64,000 nucleotides of DNA, from assembly GCF_022843985.1 (NCBI RefSeq), contig NZ_JALHMP010000004.1, forward strand, positions 93,849 through 157,848, read 5' to 3'. This document shows positions 21,315 to 59,643 of this stretch, piece by piece; position 1 is the first letter of the stretch; every line of letters starts with the position of its first letter. The notes beneath the pieces were generated by a model. That model made no database searches and was not told the DNA's origin. It was given only the letters and a program-made list of their open reading frames with translations. A program made the position numbers and the translations under genes. This stretch comes from Phreatobacter sp. Its GTDB lineage: Bacteria; Pseudomonadota; Alphaproteobacteria; Rhizobiales; Phreatobacteraceae.

Positions 21315-22607
21315 ATGTTGAACCTCAAATCAAAAGTGCTCGGCCTCGTCGCCGGCGCCGCCATGGCAGCCGGCGTTCTCGCCGCGCCGGCCAAGGCGCA
21401 GGAGACGATCAAGATCGGTATCCTGCACTCGCTGTCGGGGACGATGGCCATCAGCGAGACCACGCTGAAGGACGTCATGCTCATGCTCATCGAGGAGCAG
21501 AACAAGCGTGGCGGCGTGCTCGGCAAGAAGCTTGAACCCGTCGTCGTCGATCCCGCTTCGAACTGGCCGCTCTTCGCCGAGAAGGCCCGCGAATTGATCG
21601 CCCAGCACAAGGTCGCCGTGACCTTCGGCTGCTGGACCTCGGTGTCCCGCAAGTCGGTCCTGCCGGTCTTCGAGGAACTGAACTCGATCCTGTTCTATCC
21701 CGTGCAGTACGAGGGCGAGGAATCCTCGCCGAACATCTTCTACACCGGCGCCGCCCCGAACCAGCAGGCGATCCCGGCCATCGACTATCTCCTTTCCGAG
21801 GGCGTGAAGCGTTTCGTCCTCGAAGGCACGGACTACGTCTATCCGCGCACCACCAACCGCATTCTCGAGGCCTACCTTCTTTCCAAGGGCATCAAGGCCG
21901 AGGACATCTCCACCAATTATACACCCTTCGGCCATTCCGACTGGCAGACGCGCGTCGCGACCATCAAGCGCTTCGGCTCGACCGGCGTGAAGACCGCGGT
22001 CGTCTCCACGATCAACGGCGACGCCAACGTCCCCTTCTACAAGGAGCTCGGCAACCAGGGCGTCAAGGCGACCGACATTCCCGTCATCGCCTTCTCGGTC
22101 GGTGAAGAGGAACTGGCCGGCATCGACACCAAGCCGCTGGTCGGCCACCTCGCCGCCTGGAATTACTTCCAGTCGGTCGATACCCCCGCCAACCGCGACT
22201 TCATCGCCCGCTGGCGGGCCTTCAAGAAGAACGAGCGGGCCGTCACCAACGATCCGATGGAGGCCCATGTCATCGGCTTCGCCATGTGGGTGAAGGCGGT
22301 CGAAGCCGCCGGCACCACCGACGCGACCGCGGTGCGTCGCGCCATGATCGGCATCGCCGTGCCGAACCTGACCGGCGGCATCTCGACCATGATGCCGAAC
22401 CATCACATCACCAAGCCGGTGCTGATCGGCGAGATCCAGGAGAACGGCCAGATCCAGACGGTCTGGCAGACTCCCGGCACCGTCGTGGCGCAGGAATGGT
22501 CACCGCATCTGGAAGGCTCGCGCGACCTGATCGCCGACCACCGTCCGCCGATGAACTGCGGCAATTTCAACGTCCGCACCGGACGCTGCGGCGGCGCCCA
22601 GCGCTGA
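21315..22607 (+). CDS. urtA: Urea ABC transporter substrate-binding protein
   Basis: Periplasmic urea-binding protein of 430 aa. A signal peptide (MLNLKSKVLGLVAGAAMAAG, cut near APAKAQ) is followed by the UrtA-specific start ETIKIGILHSLSGTMAISETTLKDVMLM. FGCWTSVSRKSVLPVFEE and LFYPVQYEGEESSPN are characteristic of UrtA and AmiC-like binding proteins and distinguish it from LivJ/K. It is the first gene of urtABCDE behind a sigma-54 promoter. A GC stem-loop follows the stop, probably favouring high UrtA output relative to the permeases. Confidence 0.96.
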   Translation: MLNLKSKVLGLVAGAAMAAGVLAAPAKAQETIKIGILHSLSGTMAISETTLKDVMLMLIEEQNKRGGVLGKKLEPVVVDPASNWPLFAEKARELIAQHKVAVTFGCWTSVSRKSVLPVFEELNSILFYPVQYEGEESSPNIFYTGAAPNQQAIPAIDYLLSEGVKRFVLEGTDYVYPRTTNRILEAYLLSKGIKAEDISTNYTPFGHSDWQTRVATIKRFGSTGVKTAVVSTINGDANVPFYKELGNQGVKATDIPVIAFSVGEEELAGIDTKPLVGHLAAWNYFQSVDTPANRDFIARWRAFKKNERAVTNDPMEAHVIGFAMWVKAVEAAGTTDATAVRRAMIGIAVPNLTGGISTMMPNHHITKPVLIGEIQENGQIQTVWQTPGTVVAQEWSPHLEGSRDLIADHRPPMNCGNFNVRTGRCGGAQR

Positions 22608-22623
22608 ACTCGATCCGACGACA

Positions 22624-22651
22624 GGGGGCGCGCCGGCAGCGGCGCGCCCCC
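22624..22651 (+). terminator. Intercistronic stem-loop between urtA and urtB
   Basis: GGGGGCGCGCC (22624-22634) pairs perfectly with GGCGCGCCCCC (22641-22651) around a 6-base loop, followed by CTTCTTCC. It starts 17 bp after the urtA stop. As urtB is the next gene in the operon, a partial terminator or a 3'-end protector of urtA mRNA is more likely than a full stop. Confidence 0.7.
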
Positions 22652-22688: not shown

Positions 22689-24383
22689 TTGAACGCGTCA
22701 ACACGATCCGGTCTCGACTCCGGTTCCGGGACCTTGCGCCCCTGCTCCCCTCCGCCTGCTGCGCGGGACAAGGACATCGGCCCGATCCGCGCCCTGTCGG
22801 CATTCCTTGTGGCCGCCCTCGCCGCCTTCGTCCTGATCCTCGCCGGTCCCGCCCGGGCACAGGACCATGCCGCCCTCGTCCAGCGCTTCGCCACCGAGAG
22901 CTTCAACGACATCGCCGGCGCCGTGAACGGCCTCGCCACGTCCGGCTCGCCGCGCGCCGCCCCCGTCATCGAGGCGCTGCGCGACGGCCGCCTCGTCTAC
23001 CGCGCCGGCGACCGCCAGGTCTTCATCCGCCGCCCCGACAATTCCTTCGTCAACGCCCTCACCGGCGAGCCGGCGGCCGATGTCGGCACGACACGCCCGG
23101 TGCGCCTCAACAACAATGTCCGCCGCGCCATCGATGCCGCCGTCGGTGCGCTGTCGCTGCTCCACCCCGACCCCGCCCGCCGCACCAGCGCCGCGGAAGC
23201 CGTTTTCAAGTCGCGCGACAGCGCGGCGCTGGCCGCCCTGGACGCGGCCATCGGCCAGGAGCGTGACCCCCGCATCAGGAAGCTGATGGAGGAGGCGCGC
23301 GCCGCCGTGGTCGTCGCCAACCCGCAGGCCGCCGAGGCCGACCGCATCGCCGCCATCGGCATCATCCAGCGCCGCGGTGATCAGGACGCCCTCGCCATGC
23401 TCGGCTCGCTGCCAGCGACGACACCGCCGCTGGTGCGCGAGGCGGCCGAGAGCGCCGCGGTCGGCATCCGCCGCACCCTGGCCGTCTGGGAGGCCGGCCA
23501 GAACGTCTGGCACGGCATTTCCCTCGGCTCGGTCCTGCTGCTCGCCGCCATCGGCCTCGCCATCACCTTCGGGGTCATGGGCGTGATCAACATGGCCCAT
23601 GGCGAGATGGTGATGATCGGCGCCTACACGACCTTCGTGGTGCAGCAGACCATCCGCACCGTCGCCCCCGGCCTCATGGACGTCTCGCTCTTCATCGCCC
23701 TGCCCATGGCCTTCCTCGTCGCCGGTGCCATCGGCGTCGCCATCGAGCGGCTCATCATCCGCCATCTCTATGGCCGGGCGCTGGAGACGCTGCTCGCCAC
23801 CTGGGGCGTCAGCCTCGTGCTGCAGCAGGCGGTGCGCACCTGGTTCGGCCCCACCAACCGGGAGGTGACGACGCCGTCCTGGATGTCCGGCTCCATCGAG
23901 ATCGGCCATCTCGCCATCACCGCCAACCGGCTCGCCATCATCGTTTTCGCTATCATCGTCTTCGCCGCCCTGCTGCTGTTCCTCAAGCGCACGCCCTTCG
24001 GACTGCAGACGCGGGCGGTGACCCAGAACCGGCGGATGGCAGGGGCCATGGGCATCCGCACCAACTGGGTCGACGCCTTCACCTTCGGGCTCGGCTCGGG
24101 GATCGCGGGGCTCGCCGGCGTGGCGCTGAGCCAGATCGACAATGTCTCGCCCAATCTCGGCCAGGCCTACATCATCGACAGTTTCATGGTCGTGGTCTTC
24201 GGCGGCGTCGGCAATCTCTGGGGCACGCTGGTCGCCGCCATGACGCTCGGCATCGCCAACAAGTTCCTCGAACCCTATGCCGGCGCGGTGCTGGGCAAGA
24301 TCCTGCTCCTCGTTTTCATCATCCTGTTCATCCAGAAGCGTCCCCGGGGCCTGTTCGCCCTCAAGGGCCGGGCGGTGGAATGA
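22689..24383 (+). CDS. urtB: Urea ABC transporter permease UrtB
   Basis: Inner-membrane permease of 564 aa, longer than LivH because of the UrtB-specific N-terminus: a signal/anchor (LSAFLVAALAAFVLILAGPARAQ) and ~200 helical residues outside the membrane (residues ~55-265, Ala-rich HEAT-like). The LivH-type membrane domain follows from WHGISLGSVLLLAAIGLAITFGVMGVINMAHGE, with the permease loop around NRRMAGAMGIRTNWVDAFTFGLGSG. The start is a TTG at 22689; no better codon precedes the hydrophobic anchor. Its stop overlaps the urtC ATG by 4 bp. Confidence 0.93.
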   Translation: MNASTRSGLDSGSGTLRPCSPPPAARDKDIGPIRALSAFLVAALAAFVLILAGPARAQDHAALVQRFATESFNDIAGAVNGLATSGSPRAAPVIEALRDGRLVYRAGDRQVFIRRPDNSFVNALTGEPAADVGTTRPVRLNNNVRRAIDAAVGALSLLHPDPARRTSAAEAVFKSRDSAALAALDAAIGQERDPRIRKLMEEARAAVVVANPQAAEADRIAAIGIIQRRGDQDALAMLGSLPATTPPLVREAAESAAVGIRRTLAVWEAGQNVWHGISLGSVLLLAAIGLAITFGVMGVINMAHGEMVMIGAYTTFVVQQTIRTVAPGLMDVSLFIALPMAFLVAGAIGVAIERLIIRHLYGRALETLLATWGVSLVLQQAVRTWFGPTNREVTTPSWMSGSIEIGHLAITANRLAIIVFAIIVFAALLLFLKRTPFGLQTRAVTQNRRMAGAMGIRTNWVDAFTFGLGSGIAGLAGVALSQIDNVSPNLGQAYIIDSFMVVVFGGVGNLWGTLVAAMTLGIANKFLEPYAGAVLGKILLLVFIILFIQKRPRGLFALKGRAVE

Positions 24384-35331: not shown

Positions 35332-36324
35332 ATGCTGACACGCCGCATCTTCGTGTCCACCGCCGGCGCCATCGTCGCCAGCCCCGCCATCATCGGACGG
35401 CCTGCCGCCGCCCAGACCACCGTCACCCTGCGCTCCACTGACATTCATCCCGATGGTTATCCGACCATCGATGCGGTCAAGTTCATGGGCCAGCTCCTTG
35501 AGCAACGCACCAGCGGTCGCATCAAGATCAATGTCTTCCACTCGGCCCAGCTCGGCCAGGAGCGTGACACGATCGACCAGACCCGTTTCGGGGTCATCGA
35601 CATGAACCGCATCAACATGGCGCCGTTCAACAACCTGATCGCCTCGACCAACATTCCCTCACTGCCGTTCATCTTCCGATCGGTCGCGCATATGCGCAAG
35701 GTGATGGACGGGGCGATCGGCGACTCGATCCTCAACGACTTTACCGCCCATGGCCTTGTCGGCCTCGCCTTCTACGATTCGGGCTCGCGGTCCTTCTACA
35801 ATTCCAAGCGCCCCATCACGACCCCTGCCGACATGCGGGGCATGAAGATCCGCGTCCAGCAATCGGACATGTTCGTCGCCCTGGTGCAGGCTCTCGGTGC
35901 CAATGCGACCCCGATGCCCTTCGGCGAGGTCTTCACCAGCCTGCAGACCGGCGTCATCGACGGGGCCGAGAACAACTGGCCGAGCTACGAATCGACGCGC
36001 CACTTCGAGGTCGCCAAGTTCTATTCGCTCTCCGAACACTCGCTCAGCCCCGAGGTTCTGGTCATGTCGAAGCGCTCCTTCGACAGGTTCAACGCCGCCG
36101 ACCAGGCCCTCGTCCGCGCCGCCGCGAAGGAATCGGTGGCCAAGATGCGCGAGCTCTGGGATGCCCGCGAGAAAGCCTCCGAAGCCAAGGTCCGCGCCGG
36201 CGGTGCGGTCATCAACACGGTGGAGAAACAGCCCTTCATCGACGCCATGAAGCCGGTCTACGACCGCTTCGTCACCGACGCGAAGATGAAGGAACTCGTG
36301 GCGCGCATCCAGGCCCTGACCTGA
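35332..36324 (+). CDS. dctP: TRAP transporter substrate-binding protein (DctP family)
   Basis: Periplasmic binding protein of a TRAP transporter, 330 aa. The N-terminus MLTRRIFVSTAGAIVASPAI has a twin-arginine-like RRIF pattern and a cleavage site near RPAAAQ, so Tat export is possible. The core shows DctP traits: ELGQERD-like SAQLGQERDTIDQTRFGVIDM, the conserved MRGMKIRVQQSDMFVALVQALGANATPMPFGEVFTSLQTGVIDGAENNWPSYES segment with the ligand-binding Arg, and Asn/Trp near NNWPS. The start has GGGAGGA just upstream. It lies next to kduI and kdgF, so an (unsaturated) uronate ligand is inferred. Confidence 0.93.
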   Translation: MLTRRIFVSTAGAIVASPAIIGRPAAAQTTVTLRSTDIHPDGYPTIDAVKFMGQLLEQRTSGRIKINVFHSAQLGQERDTIDQTRFGVIDMNRINMAPFNNLIASTNIPSLPFIFRSVAHMRKVMDGAIGDSILNDFTAHGLVGLAFYDSGSRSFYNSKRPITTPADMRGMKIRVQQSDMFVALVQALGANATPMPFGEVFTSLQTGVIDGAENNWPSYESTRHFEVAKFYSLSEHSLSPEVLVMSKRSFDRFNAADQALVRAAAKESVAKMRELWDAREKASEAKVRAGGAVINTVEKQPFIDAMKPVYDRFVTDAKMKELVARIQALT

Positions 36325-36342: not shown

Positions 36343-36370
36343 AGGCCCGCCGTCCCGGCACGGCGGGCCT
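36343..36370 (+). terminator. Intercistronic stem-loop between dctP and dctQ
   Basis: AGGCCCGCCGT (36343-36353) pairs perfectly with ACGGCGGGCCT (36360-36370) around a 6-base loop, starting 19 bp after the dctP stop; TT follows. Because dctQM and kduI continue downstream, it probably acts as a partial terminator or an mRNA-end stabiliser that raises DctP over the permeases. Confidence 0.7.
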
Positions 36371-36403: not shown

Positions 36404-36931
36404 ATGCACGTCCTCCTGACACGACTAGACCGCCTGACGGCCGCCCTCAGCCGGGTCTCGCTCCTCATCGCGGGAACGGGCCTTGTCGTCATGACCGTGC
36501 TCGTCTTCTGGAGTATTTTCGGTCGCTACGTTCTCAACAACACACCGACCTGGACCGAGCCGGCGGTCCTCCTGCTGATGAGCTGGTTCATCCTCCTCGG
36601 CGCCGCGTCCGGTGTGCGCGAGCGCGGCCATATCGGCTTCCAGATCGGCCTCGCGGCATCCCCGCCGCCCCTGCGCTTCGTCCTCAAGCTTATCACCGAG
36701 ATCCTTCTCGTCGGCTTCGGACTGGCCATGCTCGTCTATGGCAGCCAACTCGCCATCGGCACCTGGAGCGCCATCACGCCGATGATCGGTATCAGCCAGG
36801 GATGGGACTATGTCCCTGTTGCGGTGAGCGGCGCGATGATTGCGCTCTTCTCCTTCGAACGCCTGCTGATGGTGCTGTCCCGCACCGACGAGCCGGTCGC
36901 AACGCCCCTATCCTCCATCGAGCCCATCTGA
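36404..36931 (+). CDS. dctQ: TRAP transporter small permease (DctQ family)
   Basis: Small membrane subunit of the TRAP transporter, 175 aa with four hydrophobic helices. The DctQ family pattern is visible in VFWSIFGRYVLNNTPTWTEPAVLLLMSWFILLGAASGVRERGHIGF, where Trp-x-Glu and the Arg-Glu-x-x-His-Ile segment are conserved. It forms a complex with DctM and docks the loaded DctP. It lies 79 bp after dctP, past a stem-loop, and 10 bp before dctM. Confidence 0.93.
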   Translation: MHVLLTRLDRLTAALSRVSLLIAGTGLVVMTVLVFWSIFGRYVLNNTPTWTEPAVLLLMSWFILLGAASGVRERGHIGFQIGLAASPPPLRFVLKLITEILLVGFGLAMLVYGSQLAIGTWSAITPMIGISQGWDYVPVAVSGAMIALFSFERLLMVLSRTDEPVATPLSSIEPI

Positions 36932-45533: not shown

Positions 45534-45566
45534 AAAAAATCAGCCCGCCAGGCGCACCTGACGGGC
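45534..45566 (-). terminator. Intrinsic terminator of the liv-type ABC operon
   Basis: Read on the minus strand, GCCCGTCAGG pairs with CCTGGCGGGC (45566-45543; 10 bp with one G-T wobble, loop of 4), followed by TGATTTTTT. It lies ~75 bp past the stop of the last permease gene (45642) and upstream of the tetR promoter, separating the two minus-strand operons. Confidence 0.8.
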
Positions 45567-48454: not shown

Positions 48455-48462
<8 letters not shown>

Positions 48463-49231
48463 GGGCGGCCTCCGCCGGCTTGGGCGCCTGGCCAAGATAG
48501 GCCTCCTGGACGACCGGCGAGGCGATCACCGCGGCGGGTTCGCCGTCGGCGACGAGCCGGCCGTTGTGCAGCACCACGATGCGGTCGGCGAGCGAGCGCA
48601 CCACGTCCATCTTGTGCTCCACCAGGAGGATGGTCTTGGTCCCGTGCGCCTTCAGCTTCTGGATGAGGTCGAGAATGACCGGAACCTCCTCCACAGACAT
48701 GCCCGCCGTCGGCTCGTCGAACATGAAGACCCGCGGCTCCAGCGCCATCATGATCGCCACTTCCAGCTTACGCTTGTCGCCGTGCGGCAGGGCGGCCGCC
48801 AGCGTGTCCCGCACACCGGCGAGGTTCACCTCCGCGAGATAGTGATCGGCCTTGTCGATCCAGTCGCGGTGGCTCGACCACAGGGAGAACAGGCTCGCCT
48901 TCGCGCGCCCGCGCGCCTGCGCGGCAAGGCGCACATTCTCCCCCACTGTGAGGTTGGGGAAGAGATTGGTGATCTGGAAGGCCCGGCCGATGCCGCGCTG
49001 CGCCCGGCCTGCCGCCCCAAGCGTCGAGATGTCCTCGCCGTCCAGCAGGGTCGTGCCGGAAGTTGCCGCCAGCTGGCCGGACATGAGGTTGAAATAGGTG
49101 GTCTTGCCGGCACCGTTCGGCCCGACGATCGCCGTGAGCGTGCCCGCCTGGAAGGCGCAGGACACGCCGTCGACGGCGACATGACCGCCGAAGCGGATGG
49201 TCAGGTCGCGGGTTTCGAGGACGGGTGGCAT
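48455..49231 (-). CDS. Branched-chain-type ABC transporter ATPase (LivG family)
   Basis: Cytoplasmic ATPase of 258 aa. Walker A is IVGPNGAGKTTYFNLMSGQL near residue 35, the family segment is GIGRAFQITNLFPNLTVGENVRLAAQAR, and Walker B is VFMFDEPTAGMS. The signature is degenerate: where LSxGxQ is expected, AAALPHGDKRKLEVAIMMALEP is found, a form also seen in many LivG proteins (LPHGxKR). It is the first gene after the binding-protein gene, separated from it by 129 bp containing a stem-loop. Confidence 0.94.
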
Positions 49232-49321: not shown

Positions 49322-49348
49322 GCGCGGCCGGGTCGTCGCCGGCCGCGC
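49322..49348 (-). terminator. Intercistronic stem-loop after the binding-protein gene
   Basis: GCGCGGCCGG (49322-49331) pairs perfectly with CCGGCCGCGC (49339-49348) around a 7-base loop, 12 bp beyond the stop of the substrate-binding-protein gene on the minus strand. There is no U-tract, so transcript stabilisation or partial attenuation before the LivG-type gene is more likely than termination. Confidence 0.6.
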
Positions 49349-49360
49349 CCGGATGCCAGG

Positions 49361-50566
49361 TCAGCGCCGATTGGTGATCGGCAGCGGCATCTCCGCGGCA
49401 GGAATGGTCCGCACCAGTTCCAGCATGTCGTTGTCACGGCCATTCGGACGGATGCGGAAGTGGTACATGTCCTGCAGCGCCTGATGGTCCTCCCTGCGGA
49501 AGGTCATCGGTCCCTTCGGCGTCTGGAACATCATGCCCTGCATCGCGGTGATCAGCTTCTCGGTATCGGTCGAGCCAGCCTTTTCCAGCGCCGCCACCAC
49601 AGCGGCCGCGGCGGCGAAACCGCCGGCGACGAAGAAGTCCGGCGGCGCATTGTGGCGCTTCTGGTACTCGGCCTTCAGCCAGTCGTTCAGCGGGTTCTGC
49701 GGGAAGTCGTAGTAATAGTAGATGCCCCCCTCGGTGCCGGCAAAGGCCTTCCAGGCGTTCATCGCCGGCAGGATATTGCCGCCGGGGGCGAGCGCGATGT
49801 TGAAGCGCTCCGGCTTCATGTCGACGAACTTGGCCATCGGATGGGCACCGGCCCAGATGAAGCCGATGATGCGCTTGCCCGGGCGGTCCCGCAGGGAGGC
49901 GAACAGGCGCTCGGCGAAGGGCGTGAAATCGGCGGTATTGCCAGCGGCAAACTCCTCCGCGACGATGCGGGCGCGCGGACGGATGGCGGCGAGCGCAGCC
50001 TTGTAGGCGGCGACGCCGTCACGGCCGAAGGCGGTGTCGAGGCCCATCATGCCGATGAACACGTCTTCGTTCTCGGGGATCGAGGCGGCCGCCGCCAGCG
50101 CATCCTGATAGGAGGAGCGTCCGGTCCGGAAGATGTAGCGGTTCCAGCGCGGCCCGGTGATCGAATCCGCCACCGCGGGCTCGACGATGAGGATCTTCTT
50201 GGCCTCCTCGGCCACCGGAAGCATGGCGAGCGCGACCGGCGAGCCGGTGGTGCCGACCGCGAGCGCTGCTCCGTCGTCGTTGTAGCACTCCTCAAGCAGC
50301 GCCTTGCCGCGGTCGGGGCGGAGCTGATCGTCCTTGACCAGCACCTGGATCCGCATGCCGGCGACCGTATTGGTCCCGCGGGTGAGATATTCGAGGCCCA
50401 TCATGAAACCGACCTCGGTCTGTTTCGCATAGGCCTCGAGCGGCCCGGTACGGCCGGCGATGAGGCAAATCTTGACGTCGCGTGTCTGCGCCGCAGCGCT
50501 GCCGGCAAAGGACGTCACGGCCCAAGCGAGCGAGGCGGCAGCCACCGCCAGCGTCTTCCTCAACAT
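49361..50566 (-). CDS. ABC transporter substrate-binding protein (LivJ/K type)
   Basis: Periplasmic type I binding protein of 401 aa. The signal MLRKTLAVAAASLAWAVTSF is cut near GSAAAQ. The mature start TRDVKICLIAGRTGPLEAYAKQTEVGFMMGLEYLTRG and the DDQLRPDRGKALLEECYNDDGAALAVGTTGSPVALAMLPVAEEAKKI region match amide/aromatic-type receptors. The start at 50566 is preceded by GGGAGGA; an in-frame start at 50617 is less likely. It is divergent from a TetR-family gene with a candidate operator between them. An aromatic or other organic acid ligand is inferred from the neighbouring CoA-ligase gene. Confidence 0.92.
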   Translation of the reverse strand: MLRKTLAVAAASLAWAVTSFAGSAAAQTRDVKICLIAGRTGPLEAYAKQTEVGFMMGLEYLTRGTNTVAGMRIQVLVKDDQLRPDRGKALLEECYNDDGAALAVGTTGSPVALAMLPVAEEAKKILIVEPAVADSITGPRWNRYIFRTGRSSYQDALAAAASIPENEDVFIGMMGLDTAFGRDGVAAYKAALAAIRPRARIVAEEFAAGNTADFTPFAERLFASLRDRPGKRIIGFIWAGAHPMAKFVDMKPERFNIALAPGGNILPAMNAWKAFAGTEGGIYYYYDFPQNPLNDWLKAEYQKRHNAPPDFFVAGGFAAAAAVVAALEKAGSTDTEKLITAMQGMMFQTPKGPMTFRREDHQALQDMYHFRIRPNGRDNDMLELVRTIPAAEMPLPITNRR

Positions 50567-59606: not shown

Positions 59607-59643
59607 AAAAGGCCCGCTCCGGGACACCGGAGCGGGCCTTTTT
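59607..59643. terminator. Bidirectional intrinsic terminator between aroF and the porin gene
   Basis: A perfect 12-bp stem GGCCCGCTCCGG (59611-59622) with CCGGAGCGGGCC (59627-59638), loop GACA, flanked by AAAA on the left and TTTTT on the right. Read from either strand it is a GC hairpin followed by a U-run, so it can stop both the aroF transcript and the convergent outer-membrane protein transcript. Confidence 0.93.

Follow-up and report, generated by a model that had tools for sequence, protein, structure and literature searches.

Three genes for substrate-binding proteins (SBPs) lie in a 64,000-nucleotide stretch of Phreatobacter sp. DNA (contig NZ_JALHMP010000004.1, positions 93,849 to 157,848; hereafter the window), and each of them is followed by a perfect GC stem-loop. 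The locus raises the question of whether these hairpins are accidents of a GC-rich genome, ordinary terminators, or elements that set the amount of binding protein against that of the other products of the operon.

Hairpins behind three binding-protein genes

The urtA-like gene (21315-22607, plus strand) encodes a urea-type Peripla_BP_5 protein of 430 residues (Pfam PF13433, Peripla_BP_5/6, E 2.4e-157). Its hairpin occupies 22624-22651 on the plus strand, begins 16 nt past the stop codon and carries the tail CTTCTTCCCC. The permease gene urtB follows at 22689-24383 (plus strand) in the list of open reading frames, with BPD_transp_2 matched for 22809-24383; its start is likely the TTG at 22689, upstream of the gene caller's choice of 22809, because GAGGGCCGAGCTTGA is common to several congeners, and this start would lie 37 nt from the hairpin. 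The TRAP SBP gene dctP (35332-36324, plus strand; 330 residues, PF03480, E 2.5e-87) is followed, 18 nt past its stop, by a perfect stem with a 6-nt loop at 36343-36370 (plus strand; tail TTCGCATG), and 33 nt further on by the called start codon of dctQ (36404-36931, plus strand; PF04290). On the minus strand, the liv-type SBP gene (49361-50566; 401 residues, PF13458, Peripla_BP_6) has its perfect stem, with a 7-nt loop, at 49322-49348, beginning 12 nt past the stop, and the first gene after it encodes an ABC ATPase (48455-49231, minus strand; PF00005). The preliminary description had reported perfect GC stem-loops behind all three genes, and they are present where it placed them. The stem lengths it gave for dctP (11 bp) and liv (10 bp) are right, that for urtA should read 12 bp and not 11 bp, the loop being 4 nt, and its statement that a membrane-component gene comes next fails at liv, where the ATPase gene intervenes.

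The 65 nt after each of the three stop codons fold at -31 to -37 kcal/mol, with the hairpin present in each fold. Relative to shuffled sequences, the z scores of these 65-nt folds are -3.1 for urtA, -2.7 for dctP and -1.5 for liv, the last being weak, since 16 of 200 shuffles fold equally well or better. All three sites have a stem-loop below -10 kcal/mol in the gap behind an importer SBP gene, which is the form described for Clostridia, and all three also have the feature of a 3' decay barrier, namely a stable hairpin that lies just past the gene and lacks a U run, which is clearest at liv. No Rfam family matched anywhere in the window at the gathering score.

Chance was considered as the origin of the window's hairpins and rejected. 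The window has six perfect stems that reach 10 bp, three of them behind SBP genes, whereas 60 dinucleotide shuffles average 1.5 such stems and never exceed 5; at lower thresholds the window holds no excess over dinucleotide shuffles (6 vs 5.1 for at least 9 bp, 18 vs 18.7 for at least 8 bp). The window has 17 same-strand junctions whose gap reaches 40 nt; a perfect stem of 9 bp or more stands at 3/3 SBP junctions and at 0/14 others, a count that takes in perfect stems only and passes over imperfect hairpins such as that at 45566-45543. By hand calculation, chance would assign these stems to the SBP junctions once in 680. The three genes are the only ones in the window among the 119 genome matches (91 + 28) to seven SBP Pfam families. 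Two further palindromes were seen in the window: a 16-bp stem at 59607-59642 between convergent genes, flanked on either side by A and T runs, which is likely a two-way terminator, and a perfect 10-bp palindrome (ACCTCTCCCC/GGGGAGAGGT) at 33-55, outside the called genes, with a similar one in the genome's hairpin list.

Hairpins after binding-protein genes across the genome

We compared the 91 genes matching six SBP families in the whole genome with 1055 other genes from 1.198 of its 4.33 Mb. Genes were called with our own script, and a rule of our own setting, applied alike to both groups, counted perfect stems of 9 bp or more that start at most 60 nt past the stop, in gaps of 40-300 nt. Where a co-directional gene lies 40-300 nt downstream (the gap class), such a stem follows 31 of 57 SBP genes and 28 of 328 others (odds ratio 12.8, p 1.6e-14), and the medians of the lowest 40-nt folding energy are -26.5 and -17.1, respectively (p 1e-17). 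The general rule at which the preliminary description had hinted is thus supported by the sequence statistics. The rate remains at 28/54 when the window's three genes are left out and is 9/17 for SBP genes drawn from the control stretches only. By family, for co-directional gaps of at least 40 nt, the counts are 10/12 for PF13458, 7/15 for PF03480, 4/8 for PF13416, 5/10 for PF00496, 1/2 for PF00497 and 4/12 for PF09084.

SBP genes with short gaps mostly lack the stem. Co-directional gaps shorter than 40 nt carry one in 1/23 SBP and 3/323 other cases (1/27 in a second count of SBP genes with gaps below 40 nt), and co-directional gaps above 300 nt in 0/2 and 2/50. Between convergent genes the counts are 2/4 vs 4/207 for gaps below 40 nt and 2/5 vs 41/147 for gaps of at least 40 nt. 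Nearly half of the gap-class SBP genes lack a perfect stem.

The TctC-type family was searched because one control hit resembled a TctC-type SBP; two control hits of the six-family comparison are in fact TctC genes. The family has 28 members, mostly without a transporter gene next to them, and a stem follows three of the seven in the gap class. With this seventh family included and the overlapping control genes removed, the comparison stands at 34/64 vs 26/325. A stem is present in 26/45 gap-class SBP genes that precede a transporter gene and in 8/19 that precede a non-transporter gene (p 0.28; the classes of five downstream genes that the rule had got wrong were corrected by hand from their sequence). 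The two rates are not significantly different, and therefore a downstream permease is not required; the membrane-component neighbour of the preliminary description need not be present.

Could the excess reflect chance, or a general trait of GC-rich, exported or well-expressed genes? A GC content of 0.67 favours stems, SBP genes have the higher codon score (median 0.345 vs 0.280), and among the controls the secreted-like genes (7/41, one of the seven being a TctC-type SBP) stand above the cytosolic (13/172) and membrane (1/30) ones. However, the SBP rate of 31/57 exceeds that of the secreted-like genes (p 3e-4), a class delimited by a crude signal-peptide rule that catches 49 of the 57 SBPs. 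Controls in the top quartile and the top tenth of codon score reach only 8/82 and 4/33, and the median z against dinucleotide shuffles is -1.99 for SBP genes and -0.33 for the others. We consider an explanation of this kind very unlikely.

Persistence in the genus and in other genera

The hairpins are maintained among the congeners. In the counts for the genus, the window's genome is one of those tallied; urtA was readable in 11 genomes, four urtA loci having yielded no gene, and the folding-energy cut of -24 kcal/mol was chosen after the values were seen. At or below this cut lie 11/11 urtA, 11/12 dctP and 9/12 liv sites. Stems of at least 9 bp are found in 9/11, 9/12 and 7/12, respectively, and at dctP a stem of 7 bp or more is present in 12/12. 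In the genus alignment of the urtA helix, 94.7% of the cells are paired, both sides have changed in 4 of the 12 pairs (reached by 7 of 500 shuffles), and the pairing is destroyed when the partner is slid; the number of additional pair types is ordinary (285 of 500 shuffles). The dctP protein of congener G003 is 99% identical to that of the window, compared with 71% identity for the hairpin and 63% for the 60-nt flank. Judged by these alignments, the structure mostly persists in the genus while the hairpin sequence changes. In 12/12 genomes, a paralogue of dctP lacks any stem of 7 bp or more; the next gene lies at most 26 nt away or overlaps in nine of them and stands 50-98 nt away in three, and therefore room alone does not bring a hairpin.

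Dispersed palindromic repeats landing in these gaps by accident would be another source of stems. A repeat family of this kind exists. Its palindrome, ATGCCCGGGCT-GTCCCGGGCAT or a variant followed by CCACGA, occurs about 20 times in 1.198 Mb; it is REP-like in look, several copies lie 30-50 nt past genes, and copies were located in C2 near 6108, in C3 near 41325 and 123313, in C5 near 95943 and in the flank of L087, where the family is the source of one SBP hairpin. By eye, a palindrome resembling this repeat also replaces the unique hairpin at the liv site of two congeners (L301 in G008 and L296 in G011). This suggests that dispersed repeats can replace a native hairpin, and dispersed palindromes are a possible source of replacement hairpins. 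As an account of the pattern, however, accidental repeats are scarcely credible: each of the window's hairpins has fewer than four copies in the 1.198 of 4.33 Mb examined (28% of the genome), on which ground they were rejected as dispersed repeats, and the excess remains when repeats are left out (30/56 vs 23/323). The malE-malF intercistronic region, to which the preliminary description had likened these sites, carries REP repeats. The likeness extends to a hairpin without a U tract behind the SBP gene and not to repetition, the window's three being unrepeated in the 1.198 Mb.

Beyond the genus, we examined TRAP SBP genes in five other genera of the order, one genome each, picked for many TRAP matches. 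The sample was taken among the matches listed and consists of ten with loci and the first 62 others, minus two with inner stops; it leaves out about eight further listed matches and 16 loci of other outgroup genomes, and one of its 70 genes was too short. For the 69 usable genes, the pooled gap-class count is 20/44 vs 4/107 controls (p 2e-9). Equal hairpin frequency after unrelated genes, the outcome that the preliminary description had named as speaking against its proposal, was thus seen neither here, among the matches listed, nor in the window's own genome. By genome, again among the matches listed, the counts are 8/14, 6/13, 5/7, 1/8 and 0/2 against 1/31, 0/22, 0/23, 3/21 and 0/10, so that two of the five genera (1/8 vs 3/21 and 0/2 vs 0/10) have no excess of perfect stems; in the genome with 1/8, an excess appears by folding energy (-26.4 vs -16.7, p 7e-4, matches listed). 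TRAP gaps below 40 nt in these genera, among the matches listed, carry a stem in 1/13 vs 0/94 cases. For urtA, the 80 loci that matched best in a public genome collection were inspected, three of them without flank; a stem of at least 9 bp is present in 31 of the 77 usable loci, and the folding z lies below -2 in 45 of the same 77. The corresponding share is 16% in ordinary gaps of the window's genome, a reference value and not a matched control for these urtA loci.

Possible roles in protection, termination and the supply of binding protein

The position of the hairpins distinguishes them from those at convergent gene ends, some of which were counted from both sides. The median start of the SBP hairpins lies 14 nt past the stop (quartiles 12-21.5), that of convergent-end hairpins 27 nt (p 0.001), and the stem-loop GC content is 0.85 vs 0.77, with stems of similar length (10.7 and 10.8 bp). 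These data bear on the suggestion that the hairpins fully terminate single-gene SBP transcripts and that the downstream genes have promoters of their own. Terminal genes do bear such hairpins, as the 41 of 147 convergent ends with gaps of at least 40 nt attest, and some SBP gaps are long. Against this stand the different position and GC content and the scant room for a usual promoter and ribosome site, the distance from hairpin to next called start being below 60 nt in 18 of 31 SBP cases, in one of which the hairpin extends past the start. In addition, no sigma-70-like site was listed in the window's three gaps by a scan that is weak for a GC-rich genome of this kind. Full termination is therefore improbable as the general case, and with so little space left, the downstream gene often probably depends on read-through. 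A stop-proximal hairpin with a co-directional gene next was also observed behind an EF-Tu-like gene, identified by eye, in genome G000 (C1:176703-177893, minus strand).

Harder to set aside is the view that the hairpins are chiefly leaky intrinsic terminators, at which polymerase stops in a fixed fraction of passages and the efficiency sets the ratio. According to PMC9045158, reporters have demonstrated such termination in R. cellulolyticum at stem-loops behind SBP genes, low-U ones among them. In the Phreatobacter genome, T is enriched just behind the SBP hairpins (2.23 per 8 nt vs 1.21 in the rest of the gap, p 4e-4), and of the window's hairpins that of urtA has four T in its 8-nt tail and that of dctP three, as TTT at the stem end. 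In the opposite direction, the scan's rule for canonical intrinsic terminators (a GC stem and at least 5 T in 8) lists none of the window's three hairpins, and a run of five T is absent at all of them; liv has a single T and no U tail, whereas a terminator-like hairpin with a proper U run (TGATTTTTTG) stands at 45543-45566 (minus strand), after the last gene of the liv cluster. At least four T in eight are found in only 4 of 30 non-repeat SBP hairpins vs 14 of 32 at convergent ends (p 0.012), with no significant difference in mean T over the 8-nt tail (2.27 vs 2.94, p 0.08, same groups) and equal T in the first 4 nt (1.50 each for SBP and convergent-end hairpins). The T enrichment behind SBP hairpins, together with a mean T like that of convergent ends, keeps termination in play, and the U content is not decisive between protection and termination. 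We regard predominantly leaky termination as a serious contender, somewhat short of an even chance, that overlaps with the explanation we prefer. A pyrimidine- or C-rich tail as a Rho signal was also considered; such tails exceed those of convergent ends and hairpin-free gaps, equal those of other co-directional hairpins, and were rejected as not specific.

The explanation we prefer, to which we assign a probability of about two in three, is that the hairpins act as intercistronic 3'-end elements that would form or protect the mRNA 3' end, some of them as leaky terminators, and so raise SBP mRNA over that of the downstream genes. The operon would be transcribed through the hairpin, at least partly. 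By lying a few nucleotides behind the stop codon, a stable GC hairpin would make a 3' end that is hard for 3'-to-5' exonucleases to enter. Such a protected end could arise when a share of transcripts terminates there or when the downstream portion decays, and the SBP message would thereby outlast and outnumber the downstream message. At urtA and dctP, leaky termination at the U-containing tail may add to the effect; at liv, which lacks a U tail, protection alone is likelier. Hairpins behind SBP genes are most likely a known route to more binding protein than membrane components.

That the idea is already known follows from its publication for ABC importers of Clostridia and E. coli, as described in PMC9045158 and PMC5927463. 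According to the former, stem-loops occur in 87.3% of the gaps above 50 bp behind 5' SBP genes in Clostridia, have low U and long GC stems and terminate with efficiencies of 20.7-96.1% in reporters, and at least 15 E. coli cases are listed as well (PMC9045158). The hairpins described here share with these internal terminators a location behind a 5' SBP gene and ahead of the rest of the operon, and resemble them, within the limits of the tail and stem comparison above, in the long GC stem and the low U; in contrast to the Clostridial ABC importers with measured termination, as presented in that source, they are known from an alphaproteobacterial order by sequence inspection, lie close to the stop and stand behind TRAP and a few TctC-type genes too (PMC9045158). 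In E. coli, SBP mRNA is reported to be stabilised in five ABC operons, and 26 of 34 ends of 5'-stabilised segments bear a hairpin that lacks a U tract, operons with intergenic intrinsic terminators having been excluded beforehand (PMC5927463). As that account describes malE-malF and other differentially decaying E. coli operons, they resemble the present ones in having a hairpin without a U tract behind the SBP gene, in the place of a 3' protector (PMC5927463). What is new here, relative to the accounts given in PMC9045158 and PMC5927463, appears from the sequences to be the breadth of the pattern (ABC, TRAP and perhaps TctC-type genes) and its stop-proximal placement. A literature search that had most subscription journals outside its scope returned no report of a hairpin rule for TRAP operons; PMC11837500 treats a different subject.

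Within the Alphaproteobacteria, the intercistronic hairpin of the puf operon of Rhodobacter capsulatus is a decay barrier. It is likewise an alphaproteobacterial intercistronic hairpin, and differs in being a single case in a photosynthesis operon. A terminating ribosome would have a footprint reaching about 12-22 nt past the stop codon, and half of the SBP hairpins start within that range. A tentative and rather doubtful extension is that the ABC, TRAP and perhaps TctC-type SBP genes of the order convergently gained a stop-proximal hairpin near the end of this footprint, its U tail weak and its sequence turning over fast. On this view, what selection maintains would be the presence and spacing of a hairpin and not its sequence, as a placement rule for SBP excess distinct from terminator function.

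The hairpins turn an observation on a few operons into a sign, readable from the genome, of a protein that is perhaps needed in excess, across transporter classes without common ancestry. Should the spacing rule prove real, it might help to separate protectors from terminators by sequence and would offer a testable design for ratios within an operon. If the known mechanism alone is at work, the pattern even so records how far it extends, into an alphaproteobacterial order and to TRAP transporters.
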